64,000 nt of DNA from NCBI GenBank assembly GCA_021234155.1, contig JAJEKV010000034.1, positions 10,243,614 through 10,307,613 of the forward strand, read 5' to 3'. This DNA comes from Isoetes taiwanensis (taxonomy: Eukaryota > Streptophyta > Lycopodiopsida > Isoetales > Isoetaceae). Both the position numbers and the translations under genes were made by a program. Of the stretch, positions 20,161 through 63,640 are shown piece after piece; within the stretch, counting starts at the first letter, position 1; each line of letters begins with the position of its first letter. The notes under the pieces were generated by a model that saw only the letters and a program-made list of their open reading frames with translations, was not told the origin of the DNA and did not search any database.

Positions 20161-20173
20161 TCCTTAGCAAAGA

Positions 20174-30625: not shown

Positions 30626-31306
30626 ATTGGTATCGAGCCAAGTTAGGTCTTTACGGTAATTTGTGGGTGATGGAAGCATTGGAAATTTGAGTGGCTTAGC
30701 AGCACACAAGATATCTTAAGGCAGCATAGGCGAGCGAGAACCCGAGCGAAGAGCAAAGGTGAAAAGAAGGTAGCACAAGAGGTCAAAAGGGAGGACATTG
30801 CAAATAGGTTACCTCTTGTTTGGGTATGGCCGATGTTTCTGGATTATGATTAGAATCTTTAAATATTTCTTATTGCATCCTTATGGTTGAGGTTGGTGCC
30901 TCAACGGATAATTTTACATTGTTGTCTAAAATTATGAGCAGTAGTTGGTGCTACTGGCTGAGATTGGTGCCTTAAGGATGGAAAGAGTTGGTGCTCTTGT
31001 CCATGATTGGAATGGCGGTTGCCGAGGTCCATGATTGGAATGGAGCGGATGCCATATCAAGAGGTTGGAATGAGTTGATGCCATGTCAAGTGAATGGAAT
31101 GAGTTAGTGCTCATGTCAGTGAATAGAATGTTTGTTATTCACGATGTTTGCATTTTGAGCCATTACTTACGATTGGAATAAACCGTTTCAAGCCTTAGGA
31201 CTTCCTATAATGTTTATTTAGGTATCTTTGAAAGAAAAAAAATCATTTAAGACTATGTTAGTAAAGAACCATACCATTTGGTTGGGTTTTGCGGAGTTCT
31301 AATCTT

Positions 31307-31954
31307 TGATATGGTTTAAGATTAATAACTAATAATGGTGCTTTCGGGGAGTGGCCTTGCATGGAACAATATTTATTGATATGATCAAGTGAAAGCCATC
31401 GGTATGACTAAACCTTGATATTATCAAAAGAGAGCTAGAAATAAACCTTGACCTTTATTTAGAAGCAAAAGGCAAAAAAAAAAAAGGTGTTGTTGCCTAT
31501 AAATAGAAGGACAACTTTGAGACCGCGATATCTCCGCCAAGCAACTTCAGAAATCGGCGATCCTTACCTTGTTGGAAAGCCCTTGAAGTCTAGTTTCAGA
31601 TTGGGCTTGGTTGTCCATAGATTCCTTATGATTTGAAAGTTATGCGAAAGGTGCATAGGGGTCTAAGTTATTTGCACAACTAGATGCTGGCTTCTTCCTA
31701 TGTTGATGATGTGCCTAGCCTTACCTTCTAATATCTTCTCTTGTTCCTTGCTTGATCATATCATTAGAAGGAGTTCATGTAACACCAGTGGTTGGTAGCT
31801 AGAAAGAGTTTGTTCTTATCTGACCTTAGCGGAGTAGCTTGACTTGGTGATATCTCTTCTAGTTGGTCGGTTGGGTGGTAAAGCGAGTACCACTGTGGTA
31901 TTTTGCTTTCTAATAAGTTGATGAATTTGCAGGAAGAATAGAACATTCGTAACA
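31307..31954 (+). repeat. LTR A2
   Basis: About 648 bp, TGATATGG...CGTAACA, followed by a primer binding site damaged to TGGTATCGAGCC. Confidence 0.85.
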
Positions 31955-32929
31955 ATTGGTATCGAGCCGATTCGGTCTTTACCGGTGAGTGTGGGTGATG
32001 GAAGGCGTTGGAAATTTAAGTGGCTAAGCGACAAAGAGGTCCAAGAGGGGCAAATTGCAAATAGGTTACCTCTTGTGCGGTTGGAAAAGAGTTGGTGCTT
32101 TTGACCAAGTGATTGGAAGGAAGTATGCAGGTCCACGATTGGAATGGCGGATGCCATGTCAAGAGATTGGAATGAGTTGGTGCTCATGTCCCGTGAGTAG
32201 AATGTTTGTTATTCGATGTTCGCGAGGTCTTACGGTTGGTCTTTGGAGATTGCAAAGCTGGAATGGAATTGATCGAAGTTGGTGCTTCTAGTGGAGGTTA
32301 GTAAACATTTTGTTGAGACAAATTAAGTTGATGTTCAATTTGTGGTTTTGGAGGCCTTCTCGAGGGAACTAAGTTTATTCACGAGAAGGGAAGGACTAAC
32401 AATTGGTATTATTACTTCTAATGGAAGGGGAAAATATCTTTCTTGTTCAAGTTGAATGATGATGTTTAACTTGAAGAAGCTGGAAAAAAATTTTGGGAAT
32501 GCCATATTTGTTCAAGTGAGGGGCCTACGTGATGGATCGATTATGGAGATTTTTACGTCCATGCTTGGCGGATCTGCCTTGGAGGATCGAGAGAAAAAGA
32601 ACATTCCTAGGAGAACAAGGTTGGTCCCAAGGCGGGAAAAGACTATGTTGTCTGAGAACCATATTATTTGGTTGGGTTTGCAGGTTCTAATGTCATGATT
32701 GAGTTTTACGCAGGACATAGAAATTGTCATGCAGGGAATTATTTGGGAGATATTCTTACCTTCTTATTTGGCACATTAGCAATTTAAGTTTTAGGCAGCT
32801 ATCGGGTAAACGTATATTTGAGTTACATTTGCCTTAGGGGAATTCTAAGGAGGAAGTATAAGGTGTTCTTTTCTTTGTGTAGTGTATAGTAAATCTTGAG
32901 ATCTGTAGCATAATAGTTGGACTTGAATA

Positions 32930-33230
32930 TTTCTGATTGTGGACTCAATTAGGGTTGCAACCATGGACTTGGTTGTGGTAGATGTTTCTAGTTGTGGATT
33001 CAACTAGGGTTGCAACCATGGATTTGGTTGTGGTAAATTATTTTCTAGTTGTGGACTCAACTAGGGTTGTAACCATGGACTTGGATTACGAAAATTTTTT
33101 ACCCTAAAGGGCTGGACTTGAATTTTTTAGCCTAGCGAGGCTGGACTTGACAATTTTTATTATGCGAGGGTTGTAGCCATGGACTTGGTTGTATCATTTC
33201 TTGATCGAGGGCGATCAATCAGAGAAGGGA
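32930..33230 (+). repeat. About 50-bp tandem repeat in internal region (copy A)
   Basis: The phrase CAACTAGGGTTGCAACCATG plus GACTTGGTTGTGGTA recurs three or more times before the polypurine tract. The same units appear in copy B near 57128-57300 and 59580-59730. Confidence 0.8.
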
Positions 33231-33234
33231 GGAA

Positions 33235-33880
33235 TTGATATGGTTTAAGATTAATAACTAATAATGGTGCTCGGGGGAGTAGCCTTGCATGGAACAATAT
33301 TTATTGATATGATCAAGTGAGAAAGCCATCCAGTATGTCTAAACCTTGATATTATCAAAGAGAGAGCTAGAAATAAACCTTGACCTTTATTTAGAAGCAA
33401 AAAGGCAAAAAAAGGTGGTGTTGCCTATAAATATAAGGACAACTTTGAGACGTGATATCTCCGCGACCACAACTCAGAAATCAACGATCCTTACCTTGTT
33501 GGAAAGCCTTGAAGTGTAGTTCCAGATTGGGCTTGGTTGTCCATAGATTTCTTATGATTTGAAAGTTATGCCCAGAAAGGTGCATAGGGGTCTAAGTTGA
33601 TTGCACAACTAGATCTGCTTCTTCCTATGTTGATGATGTGCCTAGCCTTACCTTCTAATATATCTTCTTGTTCCTTGCTTGATCATATCATTAGAAGGAG
33701 TTCATGTAACACCAGTGGTTGGTGGCTAGAAAGAGTTTGTTCTTATACAGCCTTGCGGAGTAGCTTGACTTGGTGATATCTCTTCTAGTTGGTCCGGTTG
33801 GGTGGTAAAATGAGTACCCTGTGGTATTTTGCTTTCTAATAAGTTGATGAATTTGCAGGAAGAATAGAGCATTCGTAACA
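33235..33880 (+). repeat. LTR A3
   Basis: About 646 bp; preceded by GAGAAGGGAGGAAT (polypurine tract) and followed directly by internal sequence with no primer binding site. Confidence 0.85.
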
Positions 33881-34488
33881 AATGCCAATATTGAGTTTTT
33901 CGCAGGATATAGAAATTGTCATGCAGGGAATTGTTTTGGAAGATATTCTTACCTTCTTATTTGGCACATTAGCAACATAAGTTTCTGTGACTGTCGGGTA
34001 AGCGTATATTTGAGTTACATTTGCCTTAGGGAAAGTCGAGGAGGAAGTATAAGATGTTCTTTTTTTTTTTTTGTGTAATGTATAGTAAATCTTAAGACAA
34101 CTAATATATATGCTGCTGACATAGATGTTGGTCTCATTGTTCATTATTAAAAGGTATATAAGGAAAAACTTTTTAGCCTAAGAAATTTTGGACTTGATTA
34201 TTTTCTAGTTGTGAATTCAACTAGGGTGCATAACTCATGGACTTGGTTGTGACAGTTATTTCTAGTTGTGGATTCAACTAGGGTGCTTAACTATGGACTT
34301 GGGTGTGTGATTATTTTCTAGTTGTGGACTCAACTAGGGATGTAGCAAGTGGACTTGGTTATGAAAATTTTTAGCCCTAAAGAAAGGCTGGACTTGACAA
34401 CTTTTATGCGGTTGTAGCCATGGATTTGGTTATGCTAATTTTTCATATAATTTCTTGATCCGAGGGGCGATCAATCAGAAAGGAGAAT

Positions 34489-35124
34489 TGATATAGTTTA
34501 AGGTTAATAATTAATAATGGTGCTCAGGAGTGGCCTTGCATGGAACAATATTTATTGATATGATAAAAGTAAAGAAAGCCATCAATATGTCTAAGCCTTG
34601 ATATTATCAAAGAGAGCTAAAAATAAACCTTGACCTTTATTTAGAAGCAAAGACAAAAAAAGTGTTGTTACCTATAAATAGAAGGACAACTTTGAATATC
34701 TCTGCGACCACAACTCAGAAATTGGCGATCCTTATATATCGTTGGAAAGCTCTTGAAGTCTAGTTTCCAGATTGGGCTTGATGGTGCGTAATTTCCTTGC
34801 GGTTTTGAAAGTTGTGCCGAAAGGTGCATAGGGGTCTAAAATTTGCACAGCTAGATCATGTGTCTTCTATGTTGATGATGTAATGCGGTCTTACCTTCTA
34901 GTATCTTCTCTTGTTCCTTGCTTGATCATATCACTAAAAGGAGATCTGTAACACCGATTGGTTCTTTGGCTAGAAAGAGCTTGTTGAATCTGATCTTGCG
35001 GGTAAGCTTGACTTGATGGCATCTCTTTTAGTTGAGTAGGTTGGGTGGTAAATCGAGTACCCTATGGTGTTTTGCTTTCTAATAAGTTGATGAATTTGCA
35101 TGAAGAATAGAGCATTAAGTAACA
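34489..35124 (+). repeat. LTR A4
   Basis: About 636 bp, the last of the array; its end reads CATTAAGTAACA where copy B has CATTCGTAACA. Confidence 0.8.
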
Positions 35125-35129
35125 AGGGC

Positions 35130-36340
35130 GTCGGATGGAAAGAAATGTGAAGCTCTAAAGCTTAACACATGTTTTTTCGAACATTTTTGCAAGAAGAAAA
35201 GAAAAGAAAAAATGATGTTGCGGTGCTTTAGCCATCTGGCGACTATTGTAGCAGGATCTCAATGCGGCGAACAGGTGTTTGGGGATAATCTCCTCTGTCT
35301 GCCTGCTTGCTCCTCGGATATTGATGTGTTATGCTCTAACGATGGCGATTTATTGAATGAAGGTTGACCCTATTTCTTGTTCGGTTCAACATTCAGGGTA
35401 TTCAAGGCTCCATGTTTGATTTCATGCAAGAGCGGATTTTGTTTAGGGATTTTTCCTCTTTCTACCATTATAATGCTAACTCTGGTAGGAAGTGTTTTGA
35501 AGAAGTTGCATATGAAGTACAGCGATGGGCGTGAGGATGTTTAAGAAAACCACGACTTCCTGCAGAAGTTGGGGATGATCCATTCCAGTATGTATACAAG
35601 CTCTGCTTGCCTTGGCCATGGTGGCCTACCATAATTCGATCCTCGGCAGAAGAACCCAGAGAAAAAAAAGAATAAACATGCATTTAAGCTGCAAAGTCCC
35701 GCCTCACGCAATAGCAGACCATAGATAAATCTGTAGAGGACATTATGCTAGAAGAATCCCCTTTCGGGCGATCAGAGAACGGACCCGACTGATTTATGAA
35801 GAATCTTTCACTTCTGAGCACTTCCCTACCCAGGTATGCATGTCTTTCAAGTCTAATACACAACTGGTTTTTTAATCATAAAATTTGCTCCTGCACAGCC
35901 AGATCTAGAGCTCAGATTAAGTTATGCACAACATCAAATTAGCTTAACTGTAGGCAGCTTGGTTGTATTACAGCTTGGCTTATAGTATAGGCTCTATTTG
36001 TAACATAGACAATCTGTAGATGGGACTATTTATTCATTCTTTCTTTGCTTATTGTCTAGCAGGATCTGATCTCATCTAGAATGGCCATTTTGCTGAAGAG
36101 TTAACAAGGTACATCATCTGCAAAATGTTTCGTACTTCTATGTAGGAAAAATTTACTAATCAATAATGTGAGCGGACTATTGCGGTCGGTGGGGCTTGGT
36201 GGGATCACAGTAGCTAAAAAATTAAGCGTGCCTACCCATGTAATTTACAATGTCTACCATGAATGGTTTAAAGGCGTTAGTATGAGTGCTTAGTTCTACT
36301 TATTATAGCTCTAGAAGAACATCATATCAATGCAATACTT
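35130..36340. other. Unrecognised sequence downstream of the LTR array (copy A)
   Basis: Colinear with 60517-61730. Two short open stretches on the plus strand have some protein character (LRCFSHLATIVAGSQCG near 35220; GSMFDFMQERILFRDF near 35405) but no family is recognised. Confidence 0.35.
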
Positions 36341-38220
36341 TCGACTTATGGAGCCTATTTTATTATCTTACAAGAGCTAATGATAAGATGTAAGGATGGC
36401 AATAGGTTATTCTTAGTGCCAATGCTCTTTGAGGCAAAGATGCCATAAGCAAGTCAATAATAAGCCTAATATTTAGGCAATAATATGATGGCATCTTGCT
36501 CTTTGAGGTGCTTTCCGGATGGAAAAAGGCCAAGCCACAAGGGCCGCGACTCGCGGACCTTATCAACAAGACGGACTCATCTTGTAGCATTATGCGGGGA
36601 AAGAAAAAAGATTCTGCCGCGGTAGAGCGAGGCAATTCACGCTTAATGTGGTTGACAAATATGGTTTGATGGCTAATCAATCTCCAAGGAAAGATGGAGG
36701 TATCACTAAGTTCATAACCACAAACACAGGATCGAACAATAGCATCCTACCAACTCGGCATAAATATGATGGCTGATTTAGTAGGCGACCCGACAAATGG
36801 AAGTAGACAACAATGAAGAATTGAAAATAATTGAGACCTCAACCCAACCAAGTTTTTACGAAATTAATGGGGCTGACACATGCAAGGGCAACAACCCATC
36901 TAAAACACAGGGGACTAGGCCCCATCACCCAAACACAATAACCAAATATTAAAAGGCTACCAAGAATAAGATAAGATAATGCTAATGCTAGTGGTAAATT
37001 TATGCTTCTAAAATTATCTAGACATAGCCAGTCCAAGGATTGGAAGGCCATTGATCTAGAATAATTGCTGCGCCTCCCCTGTACACTGCCCATTTCTTTT
37101 GCAGAGCTCACCTTACGGTTACACCAGTATGGTGCTCCAGCATATCTATATTATTGTGAGCCCTTGTAGGTTCTAAACTAAGTAGTTAATATCGGAATTG
37201 GTTCTATGATAGCAACATCTATCTACAAAAGGCAGATTTATGTGAGAGATAAGCTGAAACCTGTGCAATTAGATCTTAATCTCATCAACTTATATATCAT
37301 AAGTATTATTTAAAAATGTGTGGTGAAGGGCAATAAGCCGAGCATTTCTTGCTCCTCCAATTTTCCCATTTTTTAGATGGATTGAAAGTTTTCGTACAAG
37401 AGAAATCAAACATATCTGGAGGACAAATTGCAGACCTGCTTCTTCTATTCTATTCTTTAACTTGTTTAAACAATCTATTTGTCTTTTATGCAATATTACA
37501 TGAACAAGGTAATCTTTGATCCTGATACAAAAATTAATATTGTTGACTTGCTTATAAAGCAAGTCTTGCCTAATATAAGCCTCGCCTAATATTAGGCAAG
37601 ATGCCATCATGCCAATGCAATATTAGGCTTATGGCATGCAATGTTCTGTTATCTTAAGGAGCTAATATAAGATGTGAGGACTGCTGTAATTTCGTTTAAG
37701 TGTGCCAATAAGACCTTGCTAATCCATCAATGTTTGAGGAACGATTTCTATTGCTATACACTCTATTACAACTTTACAATTACCAACAAATGAAGTTTAA
37801 TAAACCGCCACTCTTGATTCAAAGAATAGACTACAGTACATTCTAATGCCTATGGATATACATAGTGCTGGCATTAGCCAATATTATACTTTAAGTCAAC
37901 GCATACCTTAATGGTCCTATAAAGAGGTGAAGAGGTGAGGAAAAAATATACGAATGAGAAACAAGGTTAAAAACACAGTGGATCTTCGAAATGGAACTTA
38001 GAATCCTTTGCAAATGTGCTCAAAGCTAACATTCTTGAACAATGAGTCAAAGCAAAAGCGCAAAGATTATTTAACAATTGCTACAACCCTCCACACATAT
38101 ACTTGAAATGAGAAAACACAGCCAGAAACAAATTACTGTAGACCTTAAACAGAGAATAGTACAAAAATGGATCGTAAACCACTGTTTGGTGGAAATTCCT
38201 GGAATATTTCCTATTTATTT
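36341..38220. other. Region framed by related direct repeats with GCCTAATATTAGGC palindromes (copy A)
   Basis: A block with TTATCTTACAAGAGCTAAT (36361-36379) and a related block with TTATCTTAAGGAGCTAAT (near 37649) flank about 1.2 kb. A perfect GCCTAATATTAGGC palindrome lies near 37587; near 36467 the copy A sequence has an extra T. The interior has no recognised gene. An ATAAG pentamer tract lies near 36964-36979. Same arrangement at 61745-63060 in copy B. Possibly a small unclassified element. Confidence 0.5.
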
Positions 38221-38296
38221 ATTTTAGGGAACCAAGGGTTTAAAATGTGCGAGGCGGCAAGACGAGCATTTGTCGAGCCATTCCGTTCTATCCATC

Positions 38297-38465
38297 CCCG
38301 ACCATAGCCATCTTTCATGCCATCTTTGCCATAAGCCCGACTTTCATGCCATCTTGCAAGTAGCGGAGCTTTCATGCCATGCACCGCCATAGCCCGACTT
38401 TCATGCTCGCCATAGCCGACTTTCATGCCATGCTCCACCATAGCGACTTTGATGCCATCTTGCCG
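38297..38465. repeat. Minisatellite with CCATAGCCGACTTTCATGCC-type unit (copy A)
   Basis: A unit of roughly 26 bp repeated about six times; degraded here, cleaner at 63690-63845. Confidence 0.85.
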
Positions 38466-38639
38466 GAGATAATGGAGTTCTTGGCGGATAATGGAGTTCT
38501 TGAGCCATGCTTCTGCACGGCGAATAGTGGAGTTCTTGAGTGGTTTTGCTTCTGCAAAAGCTTCGGTTTTGCTTGAATGATTTTGAATAAGCCCTGTTTC
38601 TTCGGCGTTTCTATTCGCGATCGAGGGAGCAAGGAGTCT

Positions 38640-40429
38640 CATGGCTGGTCGGTGGGGGGGTCTCAAATGCGAGGCAAAATAGGGGCCACCGCTTCTGGAA
38701 TTAAATCTTGCATTTCAAGATCTTCTAGTCGGATTCGAGCGGCGATACAACCTTTAGCTTTCTTGGCGGTATCGCATTAGGCATCTATTGTTAGTGAAGC
38801 TTCGACTTGCAGATGCCCCTGTTTTTGCATATCCCTTAAACTTATAGATCTCTTGCTTTCAAGCTCTCCTATTTTTGCAGATCTTCTAAGCTTGTTGATC
38901 TCTTGCTTTCGGGATCTCTGTTTTCTGAATCTACACAAATCGGCTCTTTGAGCCAAACCGAAATTTCCACCAAAGCGGCGGTTTCACGTTTGGTAGCGAT
39001 CCGGTTTCGGGGGTTTTCGGCGGTATGGCCCAGGCGGCCCGGTGCCGCTTCGAGGCTACGCCTTCGTGGTGGTGCCGCTTTGCACGATTTCTTGCGAAAA
39101 CCCTCAAGCCAGAAGCGGTTACCTAGCACATAAAACTTCTGTTTGTAGGAGTTAATAGCTTCTATAGAACAAATGGATGGCTTCAATATCTTAAGGGGAT
39201 TCACGGCAAGCGGTGACCACTAATAAAATTGTTTCCACAAATCGATATTATTAACTACTATGGCGAAAGTTTGGGGCGTTAATAGTGGGTTCAAACTCCG
39301 CGGGGTTTGGAACCAAAGAATGGCGCCAATAAATTTCTTCTTCAGCGAAATTTTAGGGACCTTGAAATTCATTAAAATCACCAAGTTTTTATAAATCGAA
39401 ATCTTCTATCGTTTTCTGGAGAGCATCGATTGGCGTGACTGCTTTAGGAAGCGCCAAATTTCAAGCTCCCCTAAAATTTCGTTGAAGAATTTTCATGACC
39501 AAAAAATTTCCCTCGAAATTTTTCGGCGGCCCTGGCGGCGTGGCGATGCCTTTCGTGGCGCCGCCACTCGCGACTGCCGTCGTGACGCCCGAGAAAATTT
39601 CTTCATGAAATTTTTGGTCATGAAAATTACTCCTTCCTAAATTAGAACTTCGCTAGAAGCTATTATTAATTTATACTATGAACTACCCTTACAATTGGAG
39701 GTGACAAGGTGCATGCTTTTCACGTGGGTCCAACATATATTTATTACCATTGAGTGTAAGTACAAATGACATTGGCACACTGCATGTGCAAAGACAATGA
39801 AGAAAAAGTTGACACCAACACTTACATTAATAGATATATTTCAAATTATTGTGTTCATCATAATGCAAATAAACTTGTTTTATGGATTGATAATAATAAT
39901 ATCATACGTTGGAATGCCAAAATGAAAGAGTGGAAGATTTGTTGAAGTGTCTCCAACAACCATGAGAACGACGGCCTAGATCGTTCGACAATTGAGCTAG
40001 TGGTCACAGGAAGTGCCAGCAGATGTGTAGTCAATTCAGGGGTTGAAAAACTCATCATGTGGCAGGGTGCAGATGCCGTGTAGGTTGAATATCCGAGCCG
40101 ATCTTTGGAGAATATTTAATGAGTAAAGGGGAGATATAGTTCACCTATTCTCTCAAAAGCACATCAGCAGAGCACATCAGCAACACAACCAGCATCGAAA
40201 AACAGGCGGGTTTGATGCGGAATGGAAGGAAGGAAAGATGCTTGGGTGATCTAGACCAGCTCATCAGGGAAGTGTTGGAAGGAGGGATGGGCAAGGCCGT
40301 GCCACGATAAAGGGGCCACGAAAGGCCCATGGGGGATCATAGTCACACATGTACAAAGTGTGTCCACCTTAGAAAAGCATAGCAAAGGTTCAAAACATTA
40401 AAAATAAAATAAAAACAAAGGGACCCCAC
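38640..40429. other. GC-rich stretch with inverted repeats, then unrecognised sequence
   Basis: 38900-39600 is more GC-rich than its surroundings and has many GGCGG/CGCC words. Inverted repeats pair TTCAGCGAAATTTTAGGG (about 39340) with CCCTAAAATTTCGTTGAAG (about 39468), and TTCATGACCAAAAAATTT (about 39492) with AAATTTTTGGTCATGAA (about 39610). No gene recognised up to the GBF promoter; open frames at 39858-40330 have no protein character. Confidence 0.55.
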
Positions 40430-40720
40430 ACTCCAATCAAGACCAAAAAGCCACGTCTCTATTGCGTCTTACGTGGCAAAGTACCCACATGTCCCACGAT
40501 GCGACCTACACATAAGATCAAATATTATGTAAATATTCCATAATTGCCATCAAATACGTGCCGTGTTCTTATTGGCTCAATCCATGTGCTTGGTTCAGCT
40601 TTCCACGTCATGGCAACGAACTACGTATCCCATACGTAGAACGCTCATCATATACGGCGATCGCTAACGATCGCTGGCATATACGAATACGTATATACTT
40701 ATCCGTATTCGTATCGTACC
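40430..40720 (+). promoter_or_regulatory. Promoter region of GBF-like gene, rich in ACGT boxes
   Basis: Contains CCACGTCT, TACGTGGCA (ABRE/G-box-like), ATACGTGCC, TTCCACGTCAT, CTACGTATC, CATACGTAG and AATACGTATA, plus ATTGGCTCAAT (CCAAT-type) and TATATA near 40692. ACGT cores are the binding sites of plant bZIP factors, the same family the downstream gene encodes, so autoregulation is plausible. Transcription start not determined. Confidence 0.5.
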
Positions 40721-42004
40721 GCGCGGAAAAACGACCCTTCTGGAGATGGGGTCCCTTTGTAGATGCCTTGTTGTTTTGCTGCGTGTGCCTTCCAGCTCGG
40801 GCGTTCGCCGTCTTGGCTTCTACTCTAGATCTCTCGCTGGATCTGCTGCCACAGGGACTCCGGCATCTAGGCGCTAAGCTTGAATTTTTTGCTCTTCGAT
40901 TTCTGTCTCTCCATTGCGGTCTCTCTTCCCTCTTTCGATCCCAACCTCGTTTTTCTCGCTTTTTCTCAGCTTTCCAGCAACCTACTACATGCCCTTGTCC
41001 TTTTCAGCTCTCGGTTACCATACCACTTTCGGACGCTTCCTTTGCACTTGTCTTCCAAAACTTTTTGTTCTGGGTTTGTCGGTTGTAATTCGCAAATTTG
41101 GGCCCCTGCCGCCATTGATCGGCTGGAAGTAAGATTTTAGGCTGCTCTGCTTTCTAGGAAGTGGATTCAGCTTGTTATCAACTGGGTAGGCTCAGCTCGC
41201 TGAAGATTGCCTTGTCGGGTGTTTTTCCCCGTCTTCATTTCGGTTCCCTGCTGACCTCTGTAAACTCTCGTCTCTCTCAGCTCAGTTTAGTGTAAGCACC
41301 TTGTATACTACGTTTGCATTGAAACGACTTTGGAGATTCTGTTGCGTCTTCGTTGAAGATCCCAGTGTGCAAAATGCACTGATGCAGGTTAGCAGTAGCT
41401 CTAGTGTTTACTTTTTTTACTGCAAATGTAAGGGAATAGGGCCACAGGGGCTTGGCCTTCTGTCTCTGTTGGCTTTCTAGACCGTTGCAACAAAGCATGC
41501 ACCTGCAAATGTTTTTACACCCTCGTTGACTGGTCAACTTGTAGTTCCATTGACTAGTCAATATCAATTAGATCTGCTGAAGGTAGGGGGATCAAAGCTG
41601 CATTTTTGGAAGTGCATTTTATATTTTAACATTCGATATATAAACAAGTGTCTGCCTAAGTGTCAAAAGTGTTTTCATCTTTAACGAAGTAGAGATGATG
41701 GGAGTTTATGAACTTGCAACTTTTGGCAGCCTGTAAGAAAGTGAAACAGGTACTGGCAATTTTTCTATGACGTGTGTTATTCCACATGGGAACCCTGTGG
41801 CTTTTAGCCTGCTTAAGGGGAAGTAGGTTGAATAGTCCTAGATGTGAAGGCTAGTCATCCTTTGCACATCCAGTCTGCTAACATGTTTGGCTGCTTATTT
41901 TTACGTTTTGCAAGGTTTTTATATCAGTAGGAAGAAAAAGATTTATATGGCATAGAAGATATTGTCTTTTTAAGTTTTATTGAATTGCACAGATTTTCTA
42001 AACA
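40721..42004 (+). other. 5' untranslated region and leader intron(s) of the GBF-like gene
   Basis: A pyrimidine-rich leader (CTCTCTTCCCTC-type) followed by sequence with possible splice sites (GATGCAGGTTAG near 41390). Open frames here, up to 176 codons, have no family resemblance and are best read as leader sequence. Confidence 0.45.
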
Positions 42005-42826
42005 ATGGGGAGTGGAGAAGCGGGAACACCAAGCAAAGACACCTAAAAACACCTACCTCACAGGTGATGCACCTAATTCTTTTTGTACAACCATTTTGCT
42101 AACCCACAGTATACTCTTAATCCTTAGAAATTAATAATAAGAATTTTAGGAACAAAGCTGTTCCTCCTAGTCATATCCTGAATGGGCAGCTGCTTTTTCA
42201 GGTGGTGATATTTTTCTGTTTTTTTTCTATACTATTGTAGACAAGTGTATTTTTACTTAGATTGGGGGCTTAAATAATTAATCTTCCGGGCCTTTCTTGT
42301 TGCAGGCAGCGGCATTTTATAATGCTGGAGCTACACCTCCTGGTTACTTTCCATCTGGATATAATATCCATACATGTGGGCTGGACAGGTGTGTCTGCTA
42401 TGTTCTCGTAATTTGTGCCTTTGTTTTATGTCTGCTGGATGATCAGCTTCTTTACTTTTAAACCTATGATGCCACCGTCTGGAACTCACTCCCTATGTTT
42501 ATCCTCACTATGGGCACCCTTCATTACGCCCGGTATGGTTTTGGTGTTTTGGTTTGCAGTATCTTTTTCATCCAGATATTGTTTTGTGAAAGTTGGCCCT
42601 CTCTTGTTCAAACAGGGAAACAATGCTTATATGGTCAATATGCATTGCCATTACCTGTGCAGGGCCGCGGTATGTTAGATTTTGTTTAGATTTCAGAATT
42701 AAGGCTGTAGTTTGCTCCAATTTATCTTGGTGCATTTAATTCCTATTTGTGCAGGGGCTGCTGGGGCTGGAGAAGAGGCAAAATCTTCAGATGGGGAAGG
42801 AACACAGCCCTGGAAGAGCAATACGC
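42005..42826 (+). pseudogene. G-box-binding bZIP factor (GBF) gene, 5' exons only
   Basis: Exon 1 (42005-42063) starts ACAATGGGG and reads MGSGEAGTPSKDT, the typical GBF N-terminus, ending at CAG|GTGATG. Exon 2 (42306-42388) reads AAFYNAGATPPGYFPSG and, one frame over, PYMWAGQ: the proline-rich MFMR domain (AYYGAGATPPPYF...HPYMWGGQ). Exon 3 (about 42450-42532) reads PMMPPSGT then, one frame over, TPYVYPHYGHPS. A probable exon lies at 42616-42669 (YGQYALPLPVQG) and another starts at 42755 (GAAGAGEEAKSSDGEGTQ). All have AG/GT borders. Single-base frame breaks in exons 1-3 may be decay or consensus errors. The bZIP domain is absent because the gene stops at 42826, where copy B begins. Confidence 0.78.
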
Positions 42827-43031
42827 ATTAGGAGAACTCAAGGTCCCAAACCAAGGTCAGCTCTAAATTGAAGGCACAAGAATCACATTTCCTTTAATTT
42901 TCAAATTTCCATCACCATTTTCAACATCCGCCACTGCGGGCCAACTTTACAGATTTCCTTTCCAAAAGCTTCACAAAGATAAGAAAGTCCATTTTTAGAA
43001 GTGTTGGATCCGCAATAACTTAAGGAAACCA
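42827..43031 (-). pseudogene. BAHD acyltransferase fragment (copy B)
   Basis: Matches 18648-18850. Only the part upstream of the EFGWG motif is included; the C-terminal end present in copy A is missing because the duplication edge cuts it. Small indels relative to copy A. Confidence 0.75.
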
Positions 43032-46000
43032 AACTCTAGCAAAGATGTCTTATGACTACAAACTTAAAAATAAACACACTTATGAATAAAGATTTCAAAG
43101 ATCATTAAATCTTAAGCATGTAATCATATCAAAATTTCAACAACTAGATCAAGTTCTTTCCCCTTGCAAAGGAAGCCACATTATGGTCAATAATTCCTTG
43201 CACCTTGATCTTCAATGAAAATAAACTTCCCCTAGATTATCATCTTACTATAAACCATTAAAAATTCAACTTCTAGTAATCGTAGCAAGTCACCCAGAGT
43301 GTATAGATTGACCATGTTCCCTCAGAAAGATTGACCAAATTCAATCGACCATGGTTGAGGCTAATCATGCATCATAGGATCCTAATATTTCTTCAATGCT
43401 CGCCATATTTTATAATAGTACAATCCGGCTGTTAAGCATTGCCGGATTAACTTTCTTTTCCCAAAGATTTTTCCATAATTATCCCACGACGTTTTTTCAA
43501 ATTCAATATTTGAGTTTGACACCTCAATATTCAATGTAACTTAACCTTCAACATCCGGGTGCCCTTTAAATATCTTAAAAACATCGCTATGCTAAATCCA
43601 ATGATCTTTTCCCGGATCATTGTTATATCTAATGAGCATGTTTACACTATGAGCAATATCCGCCTTGTGCGCTTAGCAATATAGGCCAAGCAACCCGGCA
43701 AGGATCTATAAGGAATCTTCTCCATAGTTTCTCTCCTCATCATTTTAGGACACATGTCAAGAGAAAGTTTGCATCCCGCACAAAGGTTTTGCTAATATTA
43801 CACTCTTTCATTTTGAATTTTCAAGCATACTGATCTTCACTCTTTTGAATTAAAAATAATGGTACCTTCATCCCTATTTCTTGACACCTCAATTCCTAAA
43901 ACTTGGTCGGGCCTCTCCAAGATCCGGACATTTCAAATCTGCTTTTAATAATCTTTGTACATCAACAAACATTTAGTACCTTTGGCTACCATAATGTTAT
44001 CATCAACATATAAGGCAATAATACACACCAACCTCCTTGACATTCAAATTTGTCTAAATTCTATCATTTAATAGCTTAAAAAATCCCCCTGCTCAACCGG
44101 GAAAGATAAGATAAGATAAGATAAGATAAGATGAATTTTACCATTCTCCTCGAGACTGCCTTAAGCTCATATCCCCGGGTGCTTGTTTCATGAAAAATTT
44201 CCTCATCTAATTTTGCATTCAAGAAGGGCTCCTACATCCATGTGATGCACTTCTAGATCCCATGCATTTGCCAAAGCCAATAGCATATTCTGGACACTAT
44301 TCATTTTGGACTAAAGGAGAAAATGTTTCATCAAAATCCTAGCAAAGATGTCTTATGACTACAACTTAAAATATAACACAACTTATGAATAAAGATTTCA
44401 AAGATCATTTAATCTTGGCATGTAATCATATCAAATTTCAACAACTAGATCAAGTTCTTCCCTTGCAAAGGAAGCCACATTATGGTCAATAATTCCTTGC
44501 ACCTTGATCTTCAATGAAAATAAACTTTCCCTAGATTATATCTTTACTATAACCATTAAAATTCAACTTAGTCATCAGAAAGGTATGATTGACCATGTTC
44601 AGAGAAAGATTGACCAAATTCAATCGACCATGGTTGAGACGAATCTATGCATCATAGGATCCTAATACTTCTTCAATGCTCACATAAATTATAATAGTAC
44701 AATCCGCAAGCATTGCCGGATTAACTTTTCCAAAGATTTTTCTCCATCAATTATCCCACAGACGCTTTTTTTCAAATTCAATATTCGAGTTTGACACCTC
44801 AATATTCAATGTAACCTAACCTTCAACATTTAACTATTCAACCTTTACAATATTTAGCCATGGTTTCACCCATTAACATTTCAACAACTTTCATAAGCCT
44901 TAAGCCTTGCAATGATACTCTTTTGATCTTGTAGCTTCTACTAACAAGTGTACAACCTTCATTGTGGATTTCTTTGACTGCAACAACTTGGAACATTTCT
45001 TATAATGTGATATGACTAATATTTTCAACACTTCCCCTTCATGTCATATCTGCACCTGTAAACATGATTTGTTGTCCGAAGTTCGAATCTTTTCTCCTCG
45101 CTAAAACCTTTGTCAAAATATCTCACACACTGCTTATCTCAGATAATGTAGTTGACCTAAATCAACCCTTTGCATACAGCATCTCTAATGAAATGCATCT
45201 CTAGTTCTATATGTTTTGATCTTTCATGCATTACTGGGTTTTTAGTCATGGCTATGCAGCTTATGCTATCACATAGCATCTCACTAGATTTTGGTTGCTC
45301 AACTCCAAGCTCTATTATTAATCTCCTTTCCCAGATTAGTTCCTTTGTACATAATGTGGTCGAGGCATACTCACCAAATTTTCAGCTTGACAATGCTATG
45401 GATGATTGTTTTTTGCATTTCCAAGCTAGAAGACCTCCAAGCATCATAAGGTACCCTCGATGTAGACTTCCTTGATCCAAACCTCGCCCCAAAGATCACA
45501 ATAAGCAAGCTAATATCAAGTTTTTGAATTGTATGAAACTCCCATATCCGTGGTGTCCTTTTAAATATCTTAAAACACGCTTATAAAGAATCCAATGATC
45601 TTTTCCCCGATCATTGTTATATCTACCGAGCATGTTTACACTATGAGCAATATCCGCCTTGTGCAAGTTAGCAATATAGGCCAAGCAACCCGCCAAGGAT
45701 CTATAAGGAATCCTCCATAGATTTTCTCCTCATCATTTTAGAACACATGTCAAGAGAAAGTTTGATCCCGGCACAACAGAGTTTTGCTAATATTACACTC
45801 TTTCATTTTGAATTTTCACATACCGACCGGGCCTTTGAGTTAAAATAATGGTACCTTCATCACTATTTCTGACACCCTCAATTCCTAGAAACTTGGTCAG
45901 GCCTCCAAGATCCGACATTTCAAATCTGCTTTTTAATAATCTTTTGCACATCAACAAACATTTAGTACCTTTGGCTACCATAATGTTATCATCAACATAT

Positions 46001-46225: not shown

Positions 46226-48146
46226 TTCTAGGGGCGGATCTAGTGTGGTGGACTATGTGCGGGTGCCCTGATAGCAGATATGCATGTCGTCGCTAACTTC
46301 GAAAGTGGGAAACAACTAATAGGGATGAAGAGATCGACTGCACTTCATTTTACCAATTTTACTTGAAGTTGGCTTGGCAAAAGCCAGCGAACCCCCCTGT
46401 AACAACTCCCCTCACATGCCTTTATGTGATTGATTATGAACATGCAGGCTTATGCCCGTGATGCTTATAGATGACTTGGGCGAAATTTTGCAATATCCTA
46501 CACTAGAGCAACAGCATGTGACGGTTGACTGATGTGCTTAGGACCGCATGGGCAGAGGTGCTTTTGGGATAAGCAACAAGGCGACTTACTTCCGTGAACA
46601 CAACCTTCCCACGCAATCAATGGTTTGATGCGTGAGTGCAAGAATACAAACGCTGGGTTCGGCCAAGTCACGTACCGCTTTTTTCCATGTACGTAGACAA
46701 GCACTGCATCTTCCTTAAAGCTAAGAAAGCCAGGTACATTTGCACAAGATCAAAGGGAAATGTTTTACCTCCCCGAACGCCATCCCGTGACCTTCCGGGC
46801 GAAGGGTTCTTAGAAAGCCAAGATGTTCTACTGTGAAATATCACTCCCGGAAAGCAAAGTTGGAGACAATACTTTGCAAATGCCTATAATGACCCTCGTG
46901 GTGCAATTACATGCAAAGATTACCCTTGCAAGAAGGCCCAAGGTTGGAAATCACGATTCGACGCGGAACAAGGCTTCGGCAGCCGCCTTGCCAATGGAAA
47001 AGCCCCACTTGGATGGTATGCGCGTAATGTTTAAGTGGGCACCAAGGCCGGACCGCCTTTGTTCAACAAGGCATTACGCAAGGTTTCCCGCAAAGGACCA
47101 ATAGCAGAAGTTGTTCCTATATATATGTGTGACCCACAATCGCCTAACCCAATTATCAACAATCATGGTCGGGCTGGGCTTGCAAAATTGTTTGCCGGGA
47201 TTCTCGAGCAAGCGCCAGACTGGGGCCGGGCAGGCGAGAGGGTGCGGGCCCCTCACCCAGGCAGATTCACTCGGCACTCAACCATTGACCACATCTTCAC
47301 GCTATAATCCCCGATTGAAGACAGCCAGAAACCGCCGGGCAGATCTATATTGTTGCTTTGTGGATTTTGTGAAGGCGCTTTGACACCGTGCGGGAAAAAC
47401 TATGGGCAAGATCGGGCAATGTTCCGGGGTTCCCCTAGATTTGCAAAATGCAAGGCAAAGCTATAATGAAGATGCTCGGGTCGGTTGCAGCATTAAGCCA
47501 ACCATTTGATAGCAAGATTCGGGTTCGCTGTGATGCCCCCTCTCCCCCAACATTGTTTGGGCTTTACATTGATCAATTGAGAGCTGGGCTTGTCGATAAC
47601 GGGCATGGAGTCTACCTTCTATCGGATCATCGACAGCTTAATATATGCATGATGTGGACCTCCTAGCTTACATACACCGCCAGACATGCAACCATATCTC
47701 GATGCCCCCGACACATTCTCGCCAAGCTTACCATATATGCGCTAGCAACCCGCCAAGACTAAGGTGGTTTTCATATCATCTTCACGCCACCGAGGGTCCC
47801 TCCTTCGCCATCGAGGCCAAAATGTGGAAGTTGCATCCACATACAAATATTTGGGAGTGGAGTTTCTTCTACTATGCACGGGACACATCCATACCTGGCC
47901 ACGAGTGACTGCAGTCGGAAGGCACTATATGCAATGCAAAACAATAGTCATAGAGCTGAGTTGTAAGATTGGGCCCATCACCACGCCTGCTCAAGGTCTT
48001 AGTGGAGCCCCGGCCCTTTTATACCTGGTGGAAGTATGGGGCCCAAGAGTATCACTTGCTACTTGAATGACTTGGAGCAGTCCGTAAGGCCTCTTTTAGT
48101 ACGAAAGCACTAGGTGAAGTCCACAGTCCCATATCAAATTCTATCT
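46226..48146 (+). mobile_element. LINE (copy B, degraded)
   Basis: Counterpart of 22073-23965. Readable blocks include LYCCFVDFVKAL, PTLFGLYIDQL and VEVASTYKYLGVEF; the rest is interrupted by many indels relative to copy A. Confidence 0.8.
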
Positions 48147-49036
48147 AAACCATTAAAATTCAACTTAGTAATGTAGCAAGTCACCAGAAAGGGTATGATT
48201 GACCATGTTCCTCAGAGCAAAGATTGACCAAATTCAATCGACCATGGTTGAGACGAATCTATGCATCATAGGATCCGAATACTTCTTCAATGCTCTGCTA
48301 CAGCTTATAATAGTACAATCCGGTGGTTAAGCATTGCCGGATTAACTTTCTTTTCCCAGCATTTTTCTCCATCGAATTATCCCACGACGCTTTTTCAATT
48401 CAATATTCTCAGTTTGACACCCTCAATATTCAATGTAACTTAACCTTCAACATTTAACTATTCAACCTTTACAATATTTAGCCATGGTTTCACCCATTAA
48501 CATTTCAACAACTTTCATAAGCCTTAAGCCTTGCAATGATATTCTTTTGATCTTGTAGCTTCTACTAACAAGTGTACAACCTTCATTGTGGATTTCTTTG
48601 ACTGCAACAACTTGGAACATTTCTTATAATGTGACATGATTAATATTTTCAACACTTCCCCTTCATGTCATATCTCGCACTGTAAACATGATTTGTTGTG
48701 TGAGTTCAAGAATCTTTTCTCCTCGCTAAAACCTTTGTCAAAAAATATCTCGCAATTGCTTTATCTCAGATAATGTAGTTGACCTAATCAACCCTTTGCA
48801 TACAAAAGATTCTAATGAAATGCATCTCTAGTTCTATATGTTTTGATCTTTCATGCATTACTGGGTTTTAGTCATGGCTATGCAGCTTTGTGCTATCACA
48901 TAGCATCTCACTAGATTTTGGGTTGCTCAACCCAAGCTCTAGTATAATCTTCTTTCCCGTGATTAGTTCCTTTGCACATAATGTGGTTGAGGCATACTCA
49001 GCTTCTGCAGTTGACAATGCTATGGATGATTGATAG
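48147..49036 (-). mobile_element. copia LTR part plus RNase H end (copy B)
   Basis: Counterpart of 23966-24855, with several small indels; SSIALSTAEAEYASTTLC and SSEMLCDST remain readable on the minus strand. Confidence 0.8.
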
Positions 49037-54818: not shown

Positions 54819-54820
54819 AT

Positions 54821-54833
54821 TGGTATCAGAGCC
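54821..54833 (+). promoter_or_regulatory. Primer binding site (initiator Met tRNA)
   Basis: TGGTATCAGAGCC, two bases after LTR B1; the complement of the 3' end of initiator methionine tRNA. Confidence 0.92.
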
Positions 54834-55179
54834 AAGTTCCGGTCTTTACCAGCGGAGCTGTGGGTGATGGAAGCATTGGAAATTTGAGTGGCTTAGCAGC
54901 ACACAAGATATCTTAAGGCAGCGCAAGAAGCGAGAACTTCTGAAGCCGAGAAGAGCAAAGGTGAAAAGAAGGTAGCACAAGAGGTCCAAGAGGAGGACAT
55001 TGCAAATAGGTTACCTCTTGTTTGGTATGAAACTGATGTTTACGGATTATGATTAGAATCTTTAAATATTTCTTATTGCATCCTTATGGTTGAGGTTGGT
55101 GCCTCAACGGATAATTTTACATTGTTGTCTAAAATTATGAGCAGTAGTTGGTGCTACTGGCTGAGATTGGTGCCTTAAG

Positions 55180-56152: not shown

Positions 56153-56154
56153 AT

Positions 56155-56167
56155 TGGTATCAGAGCC
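56155..56167 (+). promoter_or_regulatory. Second primer binding site
   Basis: TGGTATCAGAGCC two bases after LTR B2. Confidence 0.92.
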
Positions 56168-56988: not shown

Positions 56989-57420
56989 GTTTTAGGCAGC
57001 TATCGGGTAAACGTATATTTGAGTTACATTTGCCTTAGGGGAATTCTAAGGAGGAAGTATAAGGTGTTCTTTTCTTTGTGTAGTGTATAGTAAATCTTGA
57101 GATCTGTAGCATAATAGTTGGACTTGAATATTTCTGATTGTGGACTCAATTAGGGTTGCAACCATGGACTTGGTTGTGGTAGATGTTTCTAGTTGTGGAT
57201 TCAACTAGGGTTGCAACCATGGATTTGGTTGTGGTAAATTATTTTCTAGTTGTGGACTCAACTAGGGTTGTAACCATGGACTTGGTTACGAAAATGTTTA
57301 GCCTAAAGGGCTGGACTTGGAAATTTTTAGCCTAACGGGCTGGACTTGACAATTTTTTATTATGCAGGTTGTAGCCATGGACTTGGTTGTATCATTTCTT
57401 GATCGAGGACGATCAATCCC

Positions 57421-57434
57421 GAGAAGGGGAGGAA
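57421..57434 (+). promoter_or_regulatory. Polypurine tract before LTR B3
   Basis: GAGAAGGGGAGGAA, one base before TGATATGG; same tract before LTRs B4 and B5. Confidence 0.85.
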
Positions 57435-57435
57435 T

Positions 57436-58080
57436 TGATATGGTTTAAGATTAATAACTAATAATGGTGCTCGGGGGAGTAGCCTTGCATGGAACAATAT
57501 TTATTGATATGATCAAGTGAGAAAGCCATCCAGTATGTCTAAACCTTGATATTATCAAAGAGAGAGCTAGAAATAAACCTTGACCTTTATTTAGAAGCAA
57601 AAAGGCAAAAAAAGGTGGTGTTGCCTATAAATATAAGGACAACTTTGAGACGTGATATCTCCGCGACCACAACTCAGAAATCAACGATCCTTACCTTGTT
57701 GGAAAGCCTTGAAGATTAGTTCCAGATTGGGCTTACTTGCCCATAGATTTCTTAAGATCTGAGAGATATGATCAGAAAGGTGCTCAGGGGTCTAAGCTGA
57801 CTGCACAACTAGCTCTGCCTCTTTCTATGTTGATGATGTGCCTAGCCTTACCTTCTAGTATCTTCTCTTGTTCCTTGCTTGATCATATCATTAGAAGGAG
57901 TTCATGTAACACCAGTGGTTGGTGGCTAGAAAGAGTTTGTTCTTATACAGCCTTGCGGAGTAGCTTGACTTGGTGATATCTCTTTTAGTTGGTCCGGTTG
58001 GGTGGTAAAACGAGTACCCTGTGGTATTTTGCTTTCTAATAAGTTGATGAATTTGCAGGAAGAATAGAACATTCGTAACA
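57436..58080 (+). repeat. LTR B3
   Basis: 645 bp. Together with the following internal piece it forms the 1,192-bp unit that copy A lacks. Confidence 0.9.
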
Positions 58081-58627
58081 AATGCCAAGATTGAGTTTTT
58101 CGCAGGATATAGAAATTGTCATGCAGGGAATTGTTTTGGAAGATATTCTTACCTTCTTATTTGGCACATTAGCAACATAAGTTTTACGCGGCTATCGGGT
58201 AAACGTATATTTGAGTTACATTTGCCTTAGGGGAATTCTAAGGAGGAAGTATAAGGTGTTCTTTTCTTTGTGTAGTGTATAGTAAATCTTGAGATCTGTA
58301 GCATAATAGTTGGACTTGAATATTTCTGATTGTGGACTCAATTAGGGTTGCAACCATGGACTTGGTTGTGGTAGATGTTTCTAGTTGTGGATTCAACTAG
58401 GGTTGCAACCATGGATTTGGTTGTGGTAAATTATTTTCTAGTTGTGGACTCAACTAGGGTTGTAACCATGGACTTGGTTACGAAAATTTTTAGCCTAAAG
58501 GGCTGGACTTGGAAATTTTTAGCCTAACGGGCTGGACTTGACAATTTTTTATTATGCAGGTTGTAGCCATGGACTTGGTTGTATCATTTCTTGATCGAGG
58601 ACGATCAATCCCGAGAAGGGGAGGAAT

Positions 58628-60511: not shown

Positions 60512-60516
60512 AGGAC

Positions 60517-61730
60517 GTCCAGATGGAAAGAAATGTGAAGCTCTAAAGCTTAACACATGTTTTTTCCGAACATTTTTTGCAAGAAGAAAAGAAAAGAAAA
60601 AATGATGTTGCGGTGCTTTAGCCATCTGGCGACTATTGTAGCAGGATCTCAATGCGGCGAACAGGTGTTTGGGGATAATCTCCTCTGTCTGCCTGCTTGC
60701 TCCTCGGATATTGATGTGTTATGCTCTAACGATGGCGATTTATTGAATGAAGGTTGACCCTATTTCTTGTTCGGTTCAACATTCAGGGTATTCAAGGCTC
60801 CATGTTTGATTTCATGCAAGAGCGGATTTTGTTTAGGGATTTTTCCTCTTTCTACCATTATAATGCTAACTCTGGTAGGAAGTGTTTTGAAGAAGTTGCA
60901 TATGAAGTACAAGCAGTAGAGCGTGAGGATGTTTAAGAAAACCACGACTTCCTGCAGAAGTTGGGGATGATCCATTCCAGTATGTATACAAGCTCTGCTT
61001 GCCTTGGCCATGGTGGCCTACCATAATTCGATCCTCGGCAGAAGAACCCAGAGAAAAAAAAGAATAAACATGCATTTAAGCTGCAAAGTCCCGCCTCACG
61101 CAATAGCAGACCATAGATAAATCTGTAGAGGACATTATGCTAGAAGAATCCCCTTTCGGGCGATCAGAGAACGGACCCGACTGATTTATGAAGAATCTTT
61201 CACTTACAGAGCACTTCCCTACTTGGTATGCATGTCTTTTCAAGTCTAATACACAACTGGTTCTTTAATCATAAAATTTGCTCCTGCACAGCCAGATCTA
61301 GAGCTCAGATTAAGTTATGCACAACATCAAATTAGCTTAACTGTAGGCAGCTTGGTTGTATTACAGCTTGGCTTATAGTATAGGCTCTATTTGTAACATA
61401 GACAATCTGTAGATGGGACTATTTATTCATTCTTTCTTTGCTTATTGTCTAGCAGGATCTGATCTCATCTAGAATGGCCATTTTGCTGAAGAGTTAACAA
61501 GGTACATCATCTGCAAAATGTTTCGTACTTCTATGTAGGAAAAATTTACTAATCAATAATGTGAACAGACTATTGCAGATCAGTGGGAGCTTGGTCGGAT
61601 ACGAGTAGCTAAAGAAATTAACTGTGCCTACCCATGTAATTTACAATGTCTACCATGAATGGTTTAAGACGTTAGTATGAGTGCTTCGTTCTACTTATTA
61701 TAGCTCTAGAAGAACATCATATCAATGCAA
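60517..61730. other. Unrecognised sequence downstream of the LTR array (copy B)
   Basis: Counterpart of 35130-36340 with cleaner frames. Plus-strand frames 60557-60757 and 60754-60936 (GIQGSMFDFMQERILFRDF...) adjoin, but belong to no family I recognise. Confidence 0.35.
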
Positions 61731-63640
61731 TACTCAGCTTATGGAGCCTATTTTATTATCTTACAAGAGCTAATGATAAGATGTAAGGATGGCAATAGGT
61801 TATTCTTAGTCTGCCAATGCTCTTTGAGGCAAGATGCCATAAGCAAGTCAATAATAAGCCTAATATTAGGCAATAATATGATGGCATCTTGCTCTTTGAG
61901 GTGCTCAGATGGAAAAAGGCCAAGCCACAAGGGCACAGCTCACGGACCTTATCAACAAGACCGGACTCATCTTGTAGCATTATGCAGGAAAGAAAAAGAT
62001 TCTAGCACAGCCGAACAGGCAATTCCTGCTTAATGTGGTTGACAAATATGGTTTGATGGCTAATCAATCTCCAAGGAAAGATGGAGGTATCACTAAGTTC
62101 ATAACCACAAGCACAGATGCGAACAATAGCATCCTACCAACTCCTGGCATAAATATGATGGCTGATTTAGTAGGCGACCAGCAAATGGAAGTAGACAACA
62201 ATGAAGAATTCGAAAATAATTCGGAGCCTCAACCCAACCAAGTTTTTTCTGAAATTAATGGGACGACACATGCAAGGGCAACAACCCATCTAAAACCTGG
62301 GGACTAGGCCCCATCACCAAACACAATAACCAAATATTAAAAGGCTACCAAGAATAAGATAAGATAATGCTAATGCTAGTGGTAAATTTATGCTTCTAAA
62401 ATTATCTAGACATAGCCAGTCCAAGGATTGGAAGGCCATTGATCTAGAATAATTGCTGCGCCTCCCCTGTACACTGCCCATTTCTTTTGCAGAGCTCACC
62501 TTACGGTTACACCAGTATGGTGCTCCAGCATATCTATATTATTGTGAGCCCTTGTAGGTTCTAAACTAAGTAGTTAATATCGGAATTGGTTCTATGATAG
62601 CAACATCTATCTACAAAAGGCAGATTTATGTGAGAGATAAGCTGAAACCTGTGCAATTAGATCTTAATCTCATCAACTTATATATCATAAGTATTATTTA
62701 AAAATGTGTGGTGAAGGGCGATAAGCCGAGCATTTCTTGCTCCTCCAATTTTCTCGTTTTTTAGATGGATTGAAAGTTTTCGTACAAGAGAAATCAAACA
62801 TATCTGGAGGACAAATTGCAGACCTGCTTCTTCTATTCTATTCTTTAACTTGTTTAAACAATCTATTTGTCTTTTATGCAATATTACATGAACAAGGTAA
62901 TCTTTGATCCTGATACAAAAATTAATATTGTTGACTTGCCTATAAAGCAAGTCTTGCCTAATATAAGCCTCGCCTAATATTAGGCAAGATGCCATCATGC
63001 CAATGCAATATTAGGCTTATGGCATGCAATGTTCTGTTATCTTAAGGAGCTAATATAAGATGTGAGGACTGCTGTAATTTCGTTTAAGTGTGCCAATAAG
63101 ACCTTGCTAATCCATCAATGTTTGAGGAACGATTTCTATTGCTATACACTCTATTACAACTTTACAATTACCAACAAATGAAGTTTAATAAACCGCCACT
63201 CTTGATTCAAAGAATAGACTACAGTACATTCTAATGCCTATGGATATACATAGTGCTGGCATTAGCCAATATTATACTTTAAGTCAACGCATACCTTAAT
63301 GGTCCTATAAAGAGGTGAAGAGGTGAGGAAAAAATATACGAATGAGAAACAAGGTTAAAAACACAGTGGATCTTCGAAATGGAACTTAGAATCCTTTGCA
63401 AATGTGCTCAAAGCTAACATTACTGAACAATGAGTCAAAGCAAAAACTGCAAAGATTATTTAACAATTGCTACAACCCTCCACACATAACGGAAATGAGA
63501 AAACCTGTAGAAACAAATTACTGTAGACCTTAAACAGAGAATAGTACAAAAATGGATCGTAAACCACTGTTTGGTGGAAATTCCTGGAATATTTCCTATT
63601 TATTTATTTTAGGGAACCAAGGGTTTAAAATGTACAGGAA
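61731..63640. other. Region framed by direct repeats and palindromes (copy B)
   Basis: Counterpart of 36341-38220. Related blocks near 61750 and 63035 flank it; GCCTAATATTAGGC palindromes lie near 61858 and 62973. A 90-codon frame at 62035-62307 (starts MVDKYGLMANQSPRKDGGIT) has no recognised family. Possibly an unclassified short element. Confidence 0.45.

Follow-up and report, generated by a model that had tools for sequence, protein, structure and literature searches.

Context-dependent garbling in a head-to-tail repeat of an Isoetes taiwanensis assembly: a probable methylation footprint and a probable false duplication

We analysed a 64,000-nt stretch of an Isoetes taiwanensis contig (the window; surrounding assembly, 1.66 Gb in 1110 contigs), in which self-comparison found one long direct repeat, a head-to-tail unit of ~24.2 kb whose two copies share nearly all of their text except for short garbled words. 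Copy A lies at 18648–42826 and copy B begins directly after it at 42827, reaches the end of the window at 64000 and runs ~4.2 kb past it, ending at base 4195 of the 6 kb that follow on the contig (L070), where bases 1–4195 match A 38623–42815 (all features are on the forward strand unless stated otherwise). We consider it likely that methylation-dependent nanopore miscalls remained in unpolished contig ends and that these ends were joined into a false duplication. Read from the letters, the published sequence appears to preserve an unintended trace of DNA methylation, together with false sequence. We favor this explanation because the damage depends on CHG and CG words, because a zone near a gene separates this damage from homopolymer errors, because the damaged words are rare elsewhere in the genome, and because adapter words are present in the assembly.

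Context dependence of the differences

Alignment of A 18648–38622 with B 42827–63999 gave 3017 differing columns in 436 islands; 500-column bins differed in up to about 30% of their columns at worst. Leaving out the single large gap, 435 islands remained, of which 299 touched a CG or CHG word in the better copy, 50 changed a homopolymer length only, and 5 had a CG or CHG word only in the damaged copy; an extension to the end of the unit, aligned separately, brought the tally to 536 islands (344 at CG/CAG/CTG, 93 homopolymer, and 99 other). Islands lay over CHG-or-CG words more often than in 500 circular shifts in all six blocks and for both copies (z 3.6 to 12.0), as in the 18.6–22.1 kb block of A (64 of 109 islands versus 24.7 ± 4.2) and in B opposite A 30.6–33.1 kb (51 of 63 versus 14.9 ± 3.0). 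Mismatches were not spread evenly over trinucleotide contexts: CAG, CTG, and most CG-containing words ranked at or near the top of each block, and in the better copy at 18.6–22.1 kb, CTG was changed at 40 of 51 sites and CAG at 27 of 36, compared to 9 of 111 for CAA. The exceptions to this ranking concerned small counts (e.g., CCG, 2 of 8 changed in the same block). A first-pass annotation had described almost identical text in which such words were garbled, and the three pairs of segments that it compared (30628–30665 with 54821–54865, 36172–36230 with 61563–61625, and 20404–20440 with 44573–44612) all read as it described, with the claimed concentration at CAG, CTG, and CG borne out by the counts above.

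The same dependence was seen at isolated sites, i.e., those with no other CAG, CTG, or CG within 7 bases. Within the raw transposon zones (18648–28440 in A; B opposite 30627–33000 and 33110–39640), CAG/CTG was changed at 138 of 254 isolated sites (54%) and CG at 58 of 171 (34%), compared to 195 of 3246 CHH-type (6%) and 117 of 2507 A/T-only sites (Fisher p values for these site classes assume independent sites); CCWGG was changed in 13 of 14 cases. Thus, the earlier claim that CAG/CTG and CG sites are both hit stands, but the two classes are hit unequally, CAG/CTG more often than CG.

A control zone upstream of a bZIP gene, at 39641–42050, behaved differently. Here only 1 of 28 isolated CAG/CTG sites and 1 of 27 isolated CG sites were changed (2 of 67 and 3 of 79 when all sites were counted), beside 23 of 333 CHH-type and 13 of 247 A/T-only sites, and the errors were mainly in homopolymer and short-repeat lengths: homopolymers of at least four bases were changed in 24 of 52 cases (46%), compared to 50 of 98 in the transposon zone at 18648–24250. 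In two stretches that are identical between the copies, none of 35 such homopolymers was changed (28441–29140: homopolymers 0/13, CAG/CTG 0/13, CG 0/7; 29290–30626: homopolymers 0/22, CAG/CTG 0/17, CG 0/22). Since homopolymers are broken in the gene zone and intact in the identical stretches, they report whether text is raw or polished, and the CHG and CG words report an added factor. CG and CHG are the plant methylation contexts, and these contexts, together with the known precedents, point to methylation as the likely added factor; the text at 39.6–42.05 kb would then apparently be raw but unmethylated. Two patches at 35.4–36.1 and 37.0–37.8 kb showed few errors of either type and may have been polished.

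The edits themselves were short rewrites. At isolated CTG sites (strand-normalised), TGCTG became TCTTTG, TTCCTG became TTCACG, and TACTG became TCTTG; most edits were multi-base with insertions and deletions, and a lone T/C change accounted for only 4 of 103. In copy B opposite 22.1–23.6 kb, 90 of 396 differences from the commonest letters of related elements were C>T or G>A. Pairs of sites sharing the same two left bases received the identical edit in 29 of 952 cases (shuffled mean 5.3, maximum 16 in 2000 shuffles), and 6 of 230 did so with one right base added (1.29 when shuffled, maximum 6). The garbling is therefore systematic, being above chance, yet far from deterministic. We rejected a fully deterministic codebook, with one true word giving one wrong word, because only a minority of same-context pairs agreed. 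A general rewriting of CHG words into CG words is at most a lead: the damaged copies often show more CG-touching islands, but CG fell within the new string in only 30 of 157 isolated edits.

One damaged block around the junction

To decide which copy is wrong at each place, we searched 65 loci elsewhere in the genome (69 minus the window's own 4) for every island word together with six bases of flank. The damaged words were mostly not found elsewhere, and those of the other copy recurred. Among 435 islands, 312 received no vote, 10 had both forms present, and 113 gave a one-sided vote, of which 106 fitted a single switch of the better copy (58 for A and 4 for B before it, 48 for B and 3 for A after it). 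For one word, the B-form 30-mer occurred 32 times in the genome, and the A-form 29-mer once, as itself. Two checks independent of the vote were made at 22.1–23.6 kb, within a CG-rich, LINE-like retroelement piece at 22094–24250 that is good in A and heavily garbled in B (46248–48424); its label comes from a frame judged by eye, for which Pfam gave no match. Against 29 relatives, A was 84.5–87.3% identical and B 72.8–79.1%, and differences shared with no relative numbered 221 in B and 32 in A. Finally, a single change point in CAG/CTG content, placed between 28292 and 29148, fitted 175 of 209 informative islands, whereas 5000 shuffles reached 136 at most.

This single switch of sides means that the damage does not hop between the copies. 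It is essentially one block around the junction, from ~30.63 to ~52.63 kb (30627–52630, with a few clean patches inside), plus a small patch of copy A at 29148–29290 within a stretch that is otherwise identical in both copies. By BLAST, alignment, and polarity, copy A has good text to ~28.4 kb and at 29.29–30.63 kb and is raw from 30.63 kb, and copy B is raw to ~52.63 kb and good after that. The first-pass annotation was right that the damaged side changes, but the repeated switching that it implied reduces to one switch; its onset of damage in copy A at about 30.6 kb holds once the patch at 29.15–29.29 kb is added, and its damaged part of copy B does begin at 42.8 kb but extends to about 52.6 kb rather than 48.2 kb. 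Its view that modified-base miscalls were left in the assembly as a methylation footprint gains strong support from the CHG/CG dependence, the gene zone, the scarcity of the damaged words elsewhere, and the adapter words, with methylation as the probable cause. The reading is amended in that there is one damaged block around an adapter-bearing junction and in that the duplication itself is probably false.

The seam occupies 42816–42826, between the last base shared with L070 (42815) and the first base of copy B (42827). It holds the word AGCAATACG at 42817–42825, between single bases g and c and unlike either flank. This word equals the first bases of the nanopore end adapter GCAATACGTAACTGAACGAAGT with one A in front, and we take the extra A to come from dA-tailing. 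In the window it occurs once, at the junction; shuffles of 64 kb average 0.25 occurrences and sometimes hold the word somewhere, so that its weight rests on its position at the seam. The adapter sequence is as given in a section of a published source (PMC7730629). A longer, 18-base adapter word, AGCAATACGTAACTGAAC, has 427 exact occurrences in the assembly, compared to none for its reversed control; it also lies inside contigs of 53.1 and 24.5 Mb and adjoins an N run at the three places that could be read, in two loci (L073 and L074). These N runs are likely scaffold gaps, although N may also mark withheld letters. Contig ends in this assembly can thus retain untrimmed reads, and the seam resembles a join between two ends of this kind.

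We also compared parts of the unit to the genome. Among the candidates that were scored, the two window copies were the only full-length matches for 27400–28900 (40 of 2515 scored), for 36100–37600 (40 of 1761 scored), and for the 1201-base gene-zone query 40900–42100 (30 of 30 scored), and the LINE-like stretch 22094–23594 had many relatives. Part of the gene zone, at 40900–41240, has dispersed relatives at 76–89% identity, and the zone is thus not wholly single-copy.

Mechanistically, the assembly would have been built on native nanopore reads, and two contig ends overlapping by one ~24.2 kb stretch may have been set end to end with the overlap kept, producing a false duplication, head to tail, in which a piece of adapter was left at the seam. 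Two parts would have stayed raw: the last 12.2 kb of the first contig (about 30.63–42.82 kb) and the first 9.8 kb of the second (42.83–52.63 kb). In such raw text, the basecaller would misread plant-methylated sites, CAG/CTG most and CG next, and so produce context-dependent wrong words, with ordinary homopolymer-length errors added on top; an unmethylated stretch upstream of a gene would retain nearly all of its CAG/CTG/CG words and lose homopolymer lengths. Later accurate reads may have corrected, or favored, the outer good copies, and the limits of the raw block could have been set by contig layout or by read preference. That the duplication itself is false, arising from two contig ends, is probable from these sequence features.

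Weighing the explanation and its alternatives

Several observations weigh against this explanation. No homopolymer or CG/CHG word accounts for 81 of the 435 islands, and most same-context sites yield differing garbles. Seven of the 113 one-sided votes point to the opposite copy, and the vote is biased toward the local winner, as its loci were fetched with stretches of A or a word of B that were each the better copy locally. The limits of the zones were drawn after the profile was seen; the only CCWGG in the gene zone is changed; and at 42051–42815, near the same bZIP gene, 11 of 39 CAG/CTG and 14 of 77 control words are changed (with 3 of 9 CG and 8 of 14 homopolymers). The junction word was spotted by eye before testing, has only 9 bases, and is held at least once by 21 of 100 shuffles, and the window contains no N gap. 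Copy B also carries an extra ~1.19 kb tandem unit at 57297–58490 (gap placement approximate), so that copies nearly alike apart from errors, with about eight clean substitutions outside CG/CHG (counted by eye in the island list), nevertheless differ by one such unit. Allelic variation, a real difference, and raw-read collapse are candidate origins of this unit.

Among the alternatives, the one that survives best, while still unlikely, is that the two contig ends represent two haplotypes of one locus (a heterotype false duplication), which is a sub-case compatible with the joining of unpolished contig ends. The extra unit in B could then be allelic; however, identical runs, such as the 1.3 kb at 29290–30626, and the very few clean substitutions leave little room for allelic divergence. 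We give rather less credence to a real tandem duplication that the accurate assembly collapsed and that was afterwards filled out with raw nanopore sequence amounting to roughly one unit; the miscall mechanism would be the same. Such a one-unit fill predicts what is seen, namely damaged text that sums to about one unit with its two ends at homologous points, and it would accommodate the extra tandem unit; against it stand AGCAATACG exactly at the junction, adapters next to N runs at the three places that could be read, and, the extra unit aside, the scarcity of clean substitutions. That the zone at 39.6–42.05 kb is clean because it was polished, not because it is unmethylated, is improbable: the patches at 35.4–36.1 and 37.0–37.8 kb show that text with few errors of either type occurs and could be polished, but homopolymers in the gene zone are broken at a rate like that of the raw transposon zones and unlike that of the truly identical stretches. 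Biological change, whether by C>T deamination of methylated cytosines or by gene conversion with relatives that have diverged, can practically be set aside. In its favor, plant methylation occurs in these contexts, same-length C>T/G>A variants are common in the family (30 of 78 words surveyed), and the CAG/CGG and CTG/CCG differences among LINE-like relatives resemble ordinary CpG decay. Against it, the edits here are mostly multi-base with indels, lone T/C changes are few, damaged words are rare in the fetched relatives, and the gene-zone errors are mainly in homopolymer and short-repeat lengths.

Genome surveys bear on whether natural variants can be told from garbles. One word was found at 78 places, of which 32 were intact, 30 had only C>T/G>A changes, and 3 differed by one or two substitutions of other kinds. 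A script rule classed the remaining 13 as length-changed or scrambled, including two in copy A of the window; judged by eye, one of these is unchanged in length and probably an ordinary variant, which reduces the number to 12. Natural variants and garbles thus largely form distinct classes. On contig C1095, the CGGTAATT core of the window is found again. For a second word, with 685 places, the window's ACACAGGGG form recurs on C65, among the first 100 places listed. Raw patches are probably not limited to the window.

Other observations from these surveys are given here in their own right. Scrambled or length-changed versions of one repeat word lie on C38, C623, C978, C1006, C1028, and C1095, in some cases clustered within a single local array (three each on C38 and C978). 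The word with 685 places belongs to a short element of ~235 bp at 36867–37105, and ACAC-type garbles are among the variants at the first 100 places listed (low-numbered contigs). At L072 and two L071 units, CAG/CTG words were garbled in 17, 9, and 8 of 31 cases, versus 34, 20, and 18 of 164 control words, which is suggestive of damage mixed with real divergence; eight loci chosen for an intact word (L001–L008) had 0–6 garbled CAG/CTG words each. We rejected the 29 LINE-like relatives as proof of genome-wide damage, since their many CAG/CGG and CTG/CCG differences accompany low CG decay and are most readily explained by genuine CpG deamination. In four of these relatives (L023, L027, L035, and L037), C>T/G>A made up 0.51–0.63 of substitutions, compared to 0.23–0.43 in the others, which suggests that the copies may differ in methylation age.

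Neighboring features, consequences, and comparison with known systems

Profile matches in the region were to retroelements, DUF4216, and bZIP, with a PPR-like match below Pfam's cut-off. A Copia-type reverse transcriptase frame of 330 aa lies on the reverse strand at 20998–21990 in the good copy A (RVT_2, E 1.8e-21); in copy B, frames reach at most 104 aa, with pieces of the same protein of 50–90 aa. The gene downstream of the control zone has a leucine zipper matching bZIP_1 (L070:5093–5452, E 7.8e-7), and in the joined sequence 41400–42826 plus L070:1–5452 this zipper lies beyond the end of the unit, in the right flank of copy B. If the bZIP gene starts inside the unit, copy A would appear in an annotation as an additional, truncated gene.

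More generally, sequence that differs in as many as about 30% of columns in the worst bins is here probably a single misread locus, and garbled text of this kind would give wrong duplication ages, gene counts, and repeat families. Given the scrambled words found on other contigs and the 427 adapter words, the assembly merits checking beyond the window. Raw text also offers a possible read-free check of methylation. We lean, by a narrow balance, toward the idea that methylomes can be read from the raw contig ends of published nanopore assemblies of plants, in which homopolymers would gauge rawness and the garbled fraction of CAG/CTG and CG words would report methylation from FASTA alone; hundreds of adapter-marked places in this assembly might be read in this way, and the effect may inflate the apparent divergence of silenced repeats and favor false duplications in methylated DNA.

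Within the parts of the open-licence literature covered (including PMC7501810, PMC8514461, PMC9749173, PMC12576052, and PMC7419231), no methylation footprints in plant assemblies were reported. Ferguson et al. 2022 (PMC9749173), in the sections seen, partly ascribe the lower accuracy of nanopore reads in plants to plant methylation; a word search found no 'CHG' in its text, and these sections deal with read accuracy, whereas the footprint described here is in an assembly.

Both kinds of error, motif miscalls and false duplication, are already known. In the portion of Wick et al. 2019 (PMC6591954) concerned with consensus errors, about 70% of these errors fell in Dcm motifs for models untrained on them, with homopolymers next, and our raw text shows the same two classes, methylatable motifs and homopolymer length. 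Both that work and, as far as the relevant part goes, Chiou et al. 2023 (PMC10687267), on novel motifs, describe motif-specific and systematic errors as here, but their motifs are bacterial (CCWGG, GCAGC, and GCTGG) and ours are plant CHG and CG, our raw zones have changes at more than half of their isolated CAG/CTG sites, and our errors persist in an assembled genome. The Polypolish paper (PMC8812927) notes, in its account of repeats, that short reads go preferentially to whichever instance of a repeat is free of errors, so that errors in the other instance persist; the same preference would keep the bad halves bad in the present case, although damage in one coherent block of ~22 kb points to a role of contig layout besides short-read assignment. 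Lastly, the homotype and heterotype false duplications treated in the relevant sections of Ko et al. 2022 (PMC9516828) resemble this one in that a single locus is written twice because error-bearing reads or alleles were left unmerged, whereas here the copies abut head-to-tail without a gap, a piece of adapter remains between them, and the cause is indicated by the error spectrum.

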